Shown piece by piece: positions 42,827 to 46,202 of a stretch of DNA of 64,000 bases. The stretch covers positions 434,001-498,000 of the forward strand of contig NZ_CP048407.1 of the NCBI RefSeq assembly GCF_003403315.2, in the 5' to 3' direction. This DNA comes from Thermaerobacter sp. PB12/4term (GTDB lineage: Bacteria > Bacillota > Sulfobacillia > Thermaerobacterales > Thermaerobacteraceae). Under the pieces are notes generated by a model, which was given only the letters and a program-made list of their open reading frames with translations, had not been told where the DNA came from and made no database searches. How positions within the stretch are numbered: position 1 is the stretch's first letter; every line of letters starts with the position of its first letter. A program made the position numbers and the translations under genes.

Positions 42827-43978
42827 TCACGCCAGTTGCTGGCGCTCACGCCGCCGGGCTTGTTCTTCCATCAGGGCGCCGGCCTCGGCCAGGATCTCCC
42901 TGGCGTAGGCCTCGACCTGGGCGCGTAGCTCCGGTGTGGCGTAGATCGCCTCCAGCTCCTGGTGGGCCATCAGGGCGCGGCGCAGGTACCAAATGCCCTG
43001 GTCGAAAGCCTGCCCGAAGAAGGCCTGGGCGACCTCCATCTCCTCCCGGTACCGTTCCAGGGCTTCCACGTTGACGAAGGCCGCCGTGTCGATCACCAGG
43101 TCGCCCGTCTTGGGCTCGTAGGTGTGGGGGTAGGCGTTGTGCACCACCGCCACGCCCAGTTCGGGGATGAGCACGTGGTCCAGGCGCCGCCCGTGCAGGC
43201 CGCAGTGGTAGGCTTCGATGTCCAGGCCCCGGCGCAGGGCCGCTTCCGCAACCCGGGCCACCAGGGTGGCGCAACCGGTGCCCGGGTTGCCGCGGATGAA
43301 CACCCGCCGGGGCAGCGGGTCCAGCAGGCTGTCCAGATAGTGGCGGGGCCCTTCGGGGGTCACGGCGCTGGCAAAGAGGCGCCGGATCCGCCCGCGCCGC
43401 CCGGCGCGCACGACCCGGTGCCCCTCGAAGACGGCGGCCTCGATCTCGTGGGCGGAGTGGTCAAGGGCCGCCAGGTCAAGGGCCCCTGCATGCTCGTAGA
43501 AGTCCTCGTACAGGCCCAGGGCTTCCAGGGCCAGTCCCAGGTAGCGGTGGGCCAGCTGGAAGCGCTGGCGCACCCGCCGCCCGGTAGCGTCGATCCTGTC
43601 CTGCCGGGACGCCAGCAGGTCCCGGCCGGCCGTGGCCTCCAGGCTCAGCAGGCGGCCGACCAGGCCGGGCAGGGGCGGCTCCACCGCATGGGGCGGCGTC
43701 CCGTCCACCACGGCCAGCCCCAGCTCGGGTGCGTTGACGCCGTCCAAGGAGGACGGATCCGACGGGCAGTGGAACAGCTCCACCCCCACACCCTTCTCCA
43801 TCAGCCCCTCTACCACCATCCGGATGACCGCCGACTTGCCGGTGCCCGGCCCGCCCTTGAGGACGAAGACCCGGCGCGGCTCGGGCCAGGCGATGTATTC
43901 GAAGAACGACTGAAACCCGTGGCCGGTGTTGCCGCTGGCGAACAAATGGCGCACCCGTCCGTGTCCCGTGGCCATCAT
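42827..43978 (-). CDS. PRK06851-like tandem P-loop ATPase
   Basis: A 383-residue protein built of two related P-loop halves. The first has VFVLKGGPGTGKSAVIRMV (about residue 38) and GLAVVDGTPPHAVEP. The second begins VFIRGNPGTGCATLVARVAE (about residue 220), where the Walker A lysine position is Cys, then IEAYHCGLHGRRLDHVLIPEL and GVAVVHNAYPHTYEP. The repeat suggests an old duplication, with only the first site clearly able to bind ATP. Related proteins are widespread in spore-forming Firmicutes but their job is unknown to me. Start ATG 43978 (MMATG) with AAGAGGGGG upstream. It is divergent from glnR. Confidence 0.85.
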   Translation of the reverse strand: MMATGHGRVRHLFASGNTGHGFQSFFEYIAWPEPRRVFVLKGGPGTGKSAVIRMVVEGLMEKGVGVELFHCPSDPSSLDGVNAPELGLAVVDGTPPHAVEPPLPGLVGRLLSLEATAGRDLLASRQDRIDATGRRVRQRFQLAHRYLGLALEALGLYEDFYEHAGALDLAALDHSAHEIEAAVFEGHRVVRAGRRGRIRRLFASAVTPEGPRHYLDSLLDPLPRRVFIRGNPGTGCATLVARVAEAALRRGLDIEAYHCGLHGRRLDHVLIPELGVAVVHNAYPHTYEPKTGDLVIDTAAFVNVEALERYREEMEVAQAFFGQAFDQGIWYLRRALMAHQELEAIYATPELRAQVEAYAREILAEAGALMEEQARRRERQQLA

Positions 43979-44109
43979 GGTGCCCCCTCTTGCTGCCGTC
44001 GACGCCCGTGACCGGAACCCCGTGCGGACCATCGGGAACCCGCGATGCTACACGCTATGGAGGCGGCCGGGGGCGGGGTGCCTGTACGCGGCGGGGCGGG
44101 CGGCCCGAA

Positions 44110-44128
44110 ATGTCAGGGAACCTGACAT
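44110..44128. promoter_or_regulatory. GlnR/TnrA operator
   Basis: TGTCA-GGGAACC-TGACA at 44111-44127 matches the Bacillus GlnR/TnrA consensus TGTnA-N7-TnACA exactly and is a perfect palindrome including the flanking A and T. It lies 163 bp before the glnR start. The rest of 43979-44290 has no gene. Confidence 0.85.
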
Positions 44129-44290
44129 GGGAGGCGGGAGCTCCGGCGGAAGGTCCGGGGCGGCCGGCCGGCGGTTCCGGAACGATCCGGGACGGCAGCC
44201 GTCCAAGAGCGCCCGGCCGGGCGGAGGGGAACGGACCTGCCGGTGCCGCCATATGTATGAAAGAACCCACGGCAAGGGGAGGGGGCTGGC

Positions 44291-44902
44291 GTGTCGCGGC
44301 ACCGCAACCTGCCCCTGTATTCCATTGGCGCGGTGTGCCACCTGACCGGCCTGAGCGAGCGCCGCATCCGCTACTACGAGCAGGCGGGCCTGCTGCGCCC
44401 GGCGCGGACGGCGGGCAACCAGCGGCGGTACAGCCAGGCGGACGTGGACCTTTTGCTGGAGATCAAGTGGCTGCTCCAGCAGGGGCTGCACCTGGAGGAG
44501 ATCCGCCGCCGGCTGCTGGAGCGCCGCGGCCGCGACGAGGTCATGGGGCCTCCCGACGTGCCGGCGGCCCGAGCTGCGGCCGAGCCCTGGCCCCTGGCCG
44601 CCGCAACGCCGGCGGTGCACCGCCCGCCGGGGGCGAGTTCGCCCCGGTGGCCGGGGTCCCGCTGGCCCGACCGCCCGGGTGCCTCCGGCGCGGCGGCCGG
44701 GGTCACCGAGCCGCCTGCCGGCCTGGGGCGCATCGACCGCCTCTTCCGCGGGCCGGCTCCCGCCGTGCCGGGCATGGGCACGGCCCGCAGCCTGTACCCG
44801 GCCCTGGACCCCACCGTGCTCTACGAGGTGCGCCGCTGGCAGCGCCGCCGCAACCCGCCGGCGCCGGAGGAGGCAGGACGCGATGCGCCGGCCGCCGGCT
44901 GA
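44291..44902 (+). CDS. glnR: MerR-family nitrogen regulator GlnR
   Basis: A 203-residue regulator whose first ~80 residues are a MerR winged helix very like Bacillus GlnR (LYSIGAVCHLTGLSERRIRYYEQ; RTAGNQRRYSQADVDLLLEI; GLHLEEIRRRL). A long Pro/Ala linker follows and a short C-terminal tail (AGLGRIDRLFRG, ARSLYPALDP). In Bacillus, GlnR senses excess glutamine through feedback-inhibited glutamine synthetase and represses glnRA. The GlnR-type palindrome 163 bp upstream and the glnA-like gene overlapping its end support the same role. GTG 44291 has AAGGGGAGGGGG upstream. Confidence 0.9.
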   Translation: MSRHRNLPLYSIGAVCHLTGLSERRIRYYEQAGLLRPARTAGNQRRYSQADVDLLLEIKWLLQQGLHLEEIRRRLLERRGRDEVMGPPDVPAARAAAEPWPLAAATPAVHRPPGASSPRWPGSRWPDRPGASGAAAGVTEPPAGLGRIDRLFRGPAPAVPGMGTARSLYPALDPTVLYEVRRWQRRRNPPAPEEAGRDAPAAG

Positions 44903-46202
44903 GCCGGTTCCTCCGGACGAACCGGCCCGGCGGCTGGCCCAGCAGGGCGTCCAGCTGGTGCAGCTGGTGTACGCCGACGTGCTCGGCGTGCAGAAGGGGC
45001 TGACCCTGCCGGTCCAGCAGGCGGCGGCCGCCTGGGACGGCGGCGTGCGGGTGGACGGGGCGTCCCTGGAAGGGTTCATGCGCGTCGAAGAGCGGGAGAT
45101 GCGCCTGCGGGCCGGCGGGGAGCAGGTGTTCGTCCTGCCCTGGGAGCCGGCCGGTGGCCGCGTGGCCATGGTGCCCGCCGGGATCTACACCCGCGACGGG
45201 CGCCCCTTCGACGGCTGCCCGCGGGAGCGGTTGCAGGCCGCGGTGCGCCGGCTGGACGGGCTCGGCGTCACCGTGGAACTGGCCTTCGAGATGGAGTTCT
45301 ACCTCCTGCGGCGGCGCCGGGGCCGTCCGGAGGTCCGGGTGCCGGACCGGACGGGGTATCTGGACCTCTCGGTGCGGGACGCGGGGGAGCCGGTGCGGCA
45401 GGAGATCGCCCTGGCGCTGGAGGGCATGGGCATCGTGGTGGAGTCGGTCCATCACGCCGTGGCCCCGGCGCAGCACGAGATCGACCTGGGCTGGCAGCCG
45501 CCCCTAACGGCCGCCGACCACCTGCTGATCGCCCGGCGGGCCGTCTACGCCGTGGCGGAGCGCCACGGCATGCACGCCACCCTGCTGCCCAAGCCCCGGG
45601 CCGGCACTCACGGCTCGGGCCTGCACGTGCGGATGCGGGTTCGTCCCGCGCCGGGTTCGGGCTGGAGCCGGGCCGCCGTGACCCGCCACTGGCTGGCCGG
45701 GCTGCTCCACCATGCGCGGCCCCTCTGCGCCGTGACCAATCCCCTGGTCAATTCCTACAAGCGGCTGGTGCCCGGGTTCGAGGCGCCGGTGTACGTGGTC
45801 TGGGGACGCGACACCCACGCTCCCCTGGCCCGGCTGGTGGCCGGCTGGGAGGCGGGGGAGCTGGAATGGCGGGCACCGGATCCCTGTTGCCACCCGTACC
45901 TGGCGCTGGCCGTCCTGCTGCGGGCCGGTGCCGACGGCCTGGAGCGCCGCCTGGAACCGCCCCCGCCGCTGGAGGAGAACGTGTTCGAGCTGGACCCGGC
46001 CGAGATCGCCGCCCGGGGGCTTGAGCCGCTGCCGGGCAGCCTGGGCGAGGCCCTGGACGACATGCGCCTGAGCGGGCTGGTGCGGGAGACCCTGGGGGAT
46101 TACCTGTTCAGCCGTTACCTGGAGGCCAAGCGGACGGAGTGGGACATCTACCGCGTCCAGGTGCACCAGTGGGAGCTGGATCAGTACCTGCCCATCTTTT
46201 GA
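44883..46202 (+). CDS. glnA: Glutamine synthetase-like protein, type I
   Basis: A 439-residue protein with a GS fold: VQLVYADVLGVQKGLTLP, catalytic-barrel metal ligands in FEMEFYLLRR (two Glu), HHAVAPAQHEIDLG, the ATP/glutamate strand PRAGTHGSGLHVRM, NSYKRLVPGFEAPVYV and the end block EWDIYRVQVHQWELDQYL. It overlaps glnR by 20 bp; GGAGGAGGCAGG precedes ATG 44883. The stretch between APLAR and PDPCCHPYLALAVLL differs from normal GlnA: the usual second arginine cluster (SRG..TR before VEVR) reads WEAGELEWR, so at least two active-site arginines seem lost. It may be a true but diverged GlnA or a related gamma-glutamyl ligase. I keep the symbol because of GlnR linkage. Confidence 0.8.
   Translation: MRRPPAEPVPPDEPARRLAQQGVQLVQLVYADVLGVQKGLTLPVQQAAAAWDGGVRVDGASLEGFMRVEEREMRLRAGGEQVFVLPWEPAGGRVAMVPAGIYTRDGRPFDGCPRERLQAAVRRLDGLGVTVELAFEMEFYLLRRRRGRPEVRVPDRTGYLDLSVRDAGEPVRQEIALALEGMGIVVESVHHAVAPAQHEIDLGWQPPLTAADHLLIARRAVYAVAERHGMHATLLPKPRAGTHGSGLHVRMRVRPAPGSGWSRAAVTRHWLAGLLHHARPLCAVTNPLVNSYKRLVPGFEAPVYVVWGRDTHAPLARLVAGWEAGELEWRAPDPCCHPYLALAVLLRAGADGLERRLEPPPPLEENVFELDPAEIAARGLEPLPGSLGEALDDMRLSGLVRETLGDYLFSRYLEAKRTEWDIYRVQVHQWELDQYLPIF

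Follow-up and report, generated by a model that had tools for sequence, protein, structure and literature searches.

A glutamine synthetase (GS) homologue of 439 amino acids encoded in Thermaerobacter sp. PB12/4term, designated P0001, has lost residues at the ATP site and one residue at the metal site whilst keeping those that hold glutamine, and probably does not make glutamine. Its gene follows one encoding a GlnR-type MerR regulator, the two being preceded by a GlnR box. The reading that we favour, with a rough probability of 0.55, is that P0001 is a non-catalytic GS acting as a dedicated glutamine sensor, or glutamine-responsive partner, for this MerR protein. Two functions that a single GS combines in Bacillus, catalysis and sensing, would then be divided between two proteins.

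GS is a textbook example of an enzyme to which its own regulator looks for a signal. In Bacillus a single pocket serves both purposes, and the two are hard to separate. A natural paralogue with the ligand pocket but without the ATP chemistry would separate them, and P0001 could reveal the minimal GS needed for glutamine sensing and GlnR activation, and why an active site became a signal. On a practical level, the gene resembles a second glnA, and models of these bacteria should not credit it with making glutamine.

P0001 lies in a 64,000-nucleotide stretch of the chromosome, referred to here as the window (Table 1). The first-pass annotation had placed the open reading frame and its strand correctly. 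The start of the gene overlaps the end of the MerR gene by 20 bp. Both Pfam GS domains are found in the protein (Gln-synt_N, 45 bits; Gln-synt_C, 307 bits), although with the NCBIfam GlnA model TIGR00653 it scores 343 bits, below the cutoff of 429, whereas the genome's canonical GlnA reaches 580. The NCBIfam GGputSyn model gives 245 bits against a cutoff of 650. An AlphaFold2 model of P0001 (mean pLDDT 82, pTM 0.86) retrieved GS throughout among the 50 Foldseek matches listed, with TM values of about 0.82–0.89. P0001 is a GSI-alpha glutamine synthetase paralogue.

Table 1 Features discussed in the text (coordinates without a prefix refer to the window)
Feature	Position	Strand	Basis or remark
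P0001, GS-like, 439 aa, predicted non-catalytic	44883..46202	+	ATG 44883, stop 46200-46202
GlnR/TnrA-like MerR regulator, 203 aa	44291..44902	+	GTG start; NCBIfam, Pfam
Conserved MerR C-terminal tail GLGRIDRLFRGPAPAVPG.GTAR.LYPALDP.VLY	44720..44824	+	Alignment
Perfect 19-bp palindrome ATGTCAGGGAACCTGACAT	44110..44128	.	Holds exact GlnR/TnrA box at 44111-44127
Conserved leader before MerR start	44250-44290
Divergent neighbour, two-P-loop ATPase	42827-44032	-	PRK06851 type
Glu to Ala, codon 192 (Ec E212/Bs E189, metal ligand)	45456..45458	+	Alignment; metal role from extracts of PMC6529630
Ser to Arg, codon 252 (Pp S247, adenine N1 reader)	45636..45638	+	Alignment; role from extracts of PMC9249791
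Arg to His, codon 312 (Ec R339/Bs R316)	45816..45818	+	Alignment
Remodelled loop VAGWEAGELEWR, codons 319-330	45837..45872	+	Alignment; one residue short
Canonical glnA (L001/L113)	C1:706247-707248
ANTAR-domain gene after canonical glnA	L001:3029-3652
Ammonium transporter	G000:C1:708576-709754
Second symmetric site, ABC operon	L163 (box at about 5669), L165, L164
Third GS of G002	L117:6591-8699	-	GGputSyn-like
Unrelated dead-looking GS, gut	L075:6016-7323, L076:5983-7275, L077:5896-7362

Residues lost and kept in P0001

The roles of the residues concerned are taken from the literature. According to extracts of PMC9249791, the phosphate in Paenibacillus GS is contacted by R314, R329, R333, R334 and H243, adenine is stacked by R329 and Y199 with its N1 read by S247, and the amino acid is held by R296, E132 and G239. 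In feedback-inhibited GS (FBI-GS), glutamine contacts E304, which is braced by R62, whilst Bs R316 contacts an acidic residue of the GlnR tail; the D50 loop of each active site is supplied by the adjoining subunit (same extracts). Ec E212 is a metal ligand (PMC6529630, in extract).

P0001 was initially aligned with 114 other GS. A trimmed alignment of 132 rows was then used, in which 109 GSI-alpha rows served as the comparison set, leaving out the five rows of the P0001 clade and 18 rows that were odd or belonged to other subfamilies (L075–L077 and L081 included). The five orthologues come from four genomes of the same genus, the window's own among them, and one family-level metagenome-assembled genome (MAG); the other four are 99, 90, 88 and 70% identical to P0001.

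The metal ligands had been described as normal in the first-pass annotation, but this is not so: the Glu at Ec E212, which belongs to the HHE-VAP motif and is present in 109/109 GSI-alpha rows, is Ala in all five orthologues. The other five of the six metal ligands (Ec E129, E131, E220, H269 and E357) are retained. The GSGLH strand, likewise thought normal, is indeed present, but the Ser that follows it and reads adenine N1 (108 of 109 rows) is Arg in every orthologue. The loss of at least two conserved arginines had been correctly recognised: Ec R339 (109/109 rows) is replaced by His and Ec R355 (108/109) by Glu, in each case in 5/5 orthologues. R344 and R359, also among the ATP and phosphate arginines, are retained and in register, so that the arginines have not simply been shifted. 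When set against the canonical GlnA of its own genome and the 109 GSI-alpha rows, the arginine block of P0001 reads WGRDTHAPLARLVAGWEAGELEWR, and the alignment bears out the shortening of the loop by one residue. Within the loop, Pro is replaced by Val at codon 319 and Arg by Glu at codon 326 (Ec R355/Bs R331), with E328 and R330 retained. The Asn of the A-N-P motif, invariant in the 109 rows, is His in all five orthologues. We rejected a further change, N264 to His, as a marker of loss, the position being variable in normal GSI-alpha proteins (N in 81, A in 18, P in 6, and others).

Retention is just as consistent. D50, Bs R62, E129, E131, Y179, E220, G265, H269, R321, E327, R344, E357 and R359 are kept in 5/5 orthologues. 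The residues that bind glutamine or dock GlnR, namely Bs R62, E134, G241, R298, E304 and R335, are also kept, with the exception of Bs R316. Mapping the published roles onto the alignment thus places the losses on the ATP site and one metal site, whilst the amino-acid pocket, the D50 loop and the flap are preserved, Bs R316 apart. More broadly, 129 columns of the GSI-alpha alignment are near-invariant (at least 95% one residue); 94 of these are intact in all five orthologues and 35 are altered in at least one, whereas the canonical GlnA of the genus deviates in just 1/129.

The MerR partner and its operator

That P0001 is linked to GlnR, as the first-pass annotation proposed, is supported in the sense that the upstream gene encodes a TnrA/GlnR-like MerR protein. 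Its MerR DNA-binding domain is found by Pfam PF13411 (71 bits), and its best NCBIfam model is TransRegTnrAGPos, with a score of 68 bits that falls short of the 140-bit cutoff. The base-reading residues of GlnR, R..RY (described in extracts of PMC9249791), are present as RRIRYY, a match made by eye. The XG(E/D)XSRF C-terminal tail through which Bacillus GlnR binds FBI-GS is missing, the tail reading GLGRIDRLFRG...SLYPALDP instead. This tail is conserved in 4/4 same-genus genomes, with LYPALDP present in each and the preceding linker varying in length; the count rests on these four genomes, as the contig of the family MAG stops short of the MerR position. The MerR proteins encoded beside canonical glnA in the same four genomes, at 104–173 amino acids across the genus, lack the tail and any [ST]LYP-type motif.

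Related motifs recur elsewhere. Of 46 distinct MerR proteins whose genes lie no more than 2 kb from one for GS, 21 have the pattern [STL][LV][YF]P in the tail, compared with 38 of 2040 open reading frames of 100–250 amino acids; one same-genus MerR copy reads CLYP and falls outside the count of 21. This enrichment ties the motif to GS partnership, and its recurrence leads us to guess that the LYP tail binds GS. Such docking must differ from that in Bacillus, since Bs R316 is lost and the tail lacks XG(E/D)XSRF. We discarded the HQWELDQY C-terminus retained by P0001 as proof of docking: most GS that lack a neighbouring MerR gene carry it as well, and GlnR-linked GS cannot be told from the rest by the consensus of the C-terminal docking helix.

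The GlnR/TnrA consensus is TGTNA-N7-TNACA (PMC3412718, in extract). Within the window this consensus is matched once, by the box upstream of the MerR/P0001 operon, TGTCAGGGAACCTGACA, where 0.03 matches would be expected, and exact matches occur at three places in the 2.82-Mb genome against none for the reversed control; the other two, whose positions look like gene interiors, were treated as chance. A 15-bp core, GTCAGGGAACCTGAC, is identical in three diverged genomes aligned, the surroundings being much less conserved save for TACACGCTATGG upstream and the leader that runs up to the start codon. All four same-genus genomes carry the box, with 0, 0, 1 and 2 mismatches to TGTCAGGNNNCCTGACA; in one of them, G002, both outer T/A positions are altered. 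Scanning 1.2 kb upstream of GS genes at 131 other loci (147 kb, the paralogue's own loci excluded) with TGTCAGGNNNCCTGACA gave seven sites with up to two mismatches, compared with two in 1.1 Mb elsewhere, and exact copies precede glnA in L004 (Symbiobacterium) and L005. For canonical glnA, by contrast, scanning 1.2 kb upstream gave no box with up to three mismatches in three of the four same-genus genomes; in the remaining one, G001, every match has three mismatches.

A search for a wider regulon yielded one further good class of site, CGTCAGG-N3-CCTGAC(G/A), which precedes an operon encoding an SsuA/NMT1-type substrate-binding protein and ABC transporter components in three of the four genomes; G002 has no such second site at this operon. 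With up to two mismatches the four genomes give 8, 8, 5 and 2 box sites, but single weak sites mean little because the reversed control gives 2, 4, 3 and 1. A sigma-70 promoter scan gave no match. The roughly 40 bp directly before the MerR start, CCATATGTATGAA.GAACCCACGGCAAGGGGAGGGGGCTGGC, are near-identical in three diverged genomes, which exceeds what a ribosome-binding site needs. On the other side, the operator region is shared with a divergent gene whose product scores 199 bits with a PRK06851-type model, far under the model cutoff.

A second glutamine synthetase, selection and origin

The genome searched (2.82 Mb, one contig, 99.99% complete) contains exactly two Gln-synt_C matches: P0001 and a GlnA in which every catalytic residue checked is present, so that the second, canonical glnA that had been looked for exists. 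The two proteins are only about 43% identical. No P-II match was found in the genome, although 13 of 14 control genomes gave one, which makes another nitrogen sensor plausible. Downstream of canonical glnA lie an ANTAR-domain gene and, beyond it on the opposite strand, the sole ammonium transporter gene. In G002 there is also a third GS, a relative of gamma-glutamylpolyamine synthetase (GGputSyn-like, 483 bits, cutoff 650), the open reading frame of which, as listed, includes a long N-terminal extension outside the gene.

The paralogue is under purifying selection. Nei–Gojobori dN/dS values are 0.11–0.16 among same-genus genomes and 0.31–0.38 to the family MAG, compared with 0.04–0.17 for canonical glnA; the G000–G002 pair takes in some N-terminal codons outside the gene, and residues of about 80–100 in G004 look frameshifted, inflating its values. 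A careful tree of 35 of 56 rows, which replaced a quick tree with a long-branch warning, unites the paralogues (four rows) with support of 100/100 and sets them apart, by a long stem, from the clade of the genus's canonical GlnA and that of a same-order genome, G006 (94/78). Grouping of the paralogues with Symbiobacterium-type GlnA has support of only 15/34, and an AU test does not reject them as sister to the canonical clade (p = 0.144); they may stem from a recent duplication of the canonical gene. At the set threshold, a profile of the five paralogues matches 5 of 154 genomes of the class and 4 of 398 of the phylum, all from this family and none outside it.

Proposed sensing, its alternatives and related systems

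Several observations bear on what P0001 does: the tail-bearing MerR gene lies beside the paralogue only, a GlnR box precedes the pair, canonical glnA is intact, no P-II was matched and the losses spare the amino-acid pocket. It is for these reasons that we read P0001 as a sensor. The idea that the protein senses rather than catalyses, raised in the first-pass annotation, agrees with where the losses fall and with the presence of both a GlnR-type neighbour and a GlnR box, and is put forward here as a hypothesis. On this model P0001, which retains its amino-acid pocket, its E-flap and a D50 loop that includes Bs R62, would be unable to bind ATP and metal for catalysis. It would be co-expressed with the MerR protein encoded before it and, by analogy with Bacillus, would bind the MerR tail. 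When nitrogen is plentiful, glutamine would occupy the old substrate pocket and the flap would close; the tail would then dock in the side pores of P0001, uniting two MerR DNA-binding domains on the TGTCAGG-N3-CCTGACA operator. The MerR/P0001 operon would be repressed and so, probably, would that of the SsuA/NMT1-type ABC transporter. Loss of the metal ligand could also weaken glutamine binding.

P0001 might instead be a dead subunit that assembles with canonical GlnA in a mixed oligomer and tunes its activity. GS active sites span neighbouring subunits by way of the D50 loop (PMC9249791, in extract), which P0001 keeps in what is predicted to be an intact GS fold, and a dead paralogue that activates its partner is known in AdoMetDC/prozyme (PMC5201418, in extract). 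Such an arrangement is compatible with sensing. We nevertheless consider it unlikely, given the low identity of the two GS and the separate operon and operator of P0001, and it leaves the paired long-tailed MerR protein unexplained.

Somewhat less likely is that P0001 is a slow but active GS in which His312, Arg252 and Glu326 compensate for what was lost. The gene is under purifying selection, E131, E220, H269, E357, D50, E327, R344 and R359 are retained, and work on fungal GS (GSII) counsels caution: according to extracts of PMC3829961, the R311A mutant kept its activity and was prototrophic, whilst the E193 mutant lost both synthesis and regulation. By our own mapping these residues are probably equivalent to R339 and E212, respectively, and arguments from single residues are accordingly weak. 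Other point mutants in that study had no glutamine synthesis yet retained regulation, which speaks for the two being separable. In P0001, however, four first-shell ATP and metal positions are altered together, and one of these, the metal ligand, is invariant in the 109 GSI-alpha rows and in 14 rows from other GS subfamilies.

The same 14 rows, gamma-glutamyl-amine-ligase-like proteins included, make it improbable that P0001 has become a ligase for another acid or amine, such as a gamma-glutamyl-amine ligase of the GlnA2/3/4 or PuuA kind. GS superfamily paralogues often take this path, the GGputSyn model also scores P0001 and a change of substrate had been put forward in the first-pass annotation. 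Ligases need the ATP and metal site, though, and the 14 rows keep E212 and R339 without exception and the adenine Ser in 13 cases, whereas their ammonia-site residues (D50, E327) are mostly altered. GlnA2/3/4, PuuA and GGputSyn resemble P0001 in being found in addition to a true GlnA; P0001 shows the reverse pattern, with ATP and metal residues lost and the ammonia site unaltered, and we rejected a change of substrate for this reason. Decay into a functionless pseudogene, for which the long stem and accelerated change might speak, is very improbable and was rejected given the low dN/dS, a frame open in 5/5 genomes, the same active-site replacements throughout the orthologues and a conserved operator.

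Returning to P0001 as a sensor, the closest parallel is the FBI-GS–GlnR system of Bacillus, Paenibacillus, Listeria and Staphylococcus (extracts of PMC9249791), in which a MerR-type GlnR gene likewise lies directly before GS. The two share the TGTNA-N7-TNACA box type and the GSI-alpha fold, and the glutamine-binding, D50-loop Arg and E-flap residues are common to both. The GlnR operator in the crystal is given as CGTGTCAGATAATCTGACACG, and the crystallised operator TGTCAGATAATCTGACA has both outer blocks, TGTCAG and CTGACA, in common with TGTCAGGGAACCTGACA (same extracts). The differences are that a single FBI-GS both catalyses and signals, whereas the GS of the P0001 operon lacks ATP and metal residues and a second GS is there for catalysis, and that the XG(E/D)XSRF tail of GlnR gives way to the LYP tail, with Bs R316 lost. 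The canonical GlnA of the genome is also a GSI-alpha protein with an upstream MerR gene but differs from P0001 in its catalytic residues, its tail-less MerR, the ANTAR-domain gene that follows and, in 3/4 genomes, the absence of an upstream box. Among the extracts of the literature searched, we found no bacterial non-catalytic GS that works with GlnR.

A second family of GS that has lost catalytic residues, unrelated to P0001, is present in gut Eubacterium/Lachnospiraceae (L075–L077) and is also adjoined by a regulator gene. Seven of 13 checked catalytic residues are altered in all three rows, and the losses differ from those of P0001: E129, E220, H269, E327, R339 and R355 are affected, and R359 is changed to Lys. 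More tentatively, with odds that we would put at somewhat under even, the GlnR circuit of the Thermaerobacter family has come to rest on a dedicated dead GS serving as glutamine receptor and GlnR docking chaperone, with the catalytic GlnA left without a tail-bearing GlnR partner or operator. This would amount to an evolutionary split of a bifunctional enzyme-sensor, of which the dead GS and ANTAR gene of gut Clostridia would be a second, independent case. At L075–L077 an ANTAR-domain gene comes after the GS gene and an AA-kinase gene (Pfam, L075) before it, with putative carA-carB and pyrG, assigned by eye, on the flanks; a possible role for the protein is as a glutamine sensor for glutamine-dependent amidotransferase genes.
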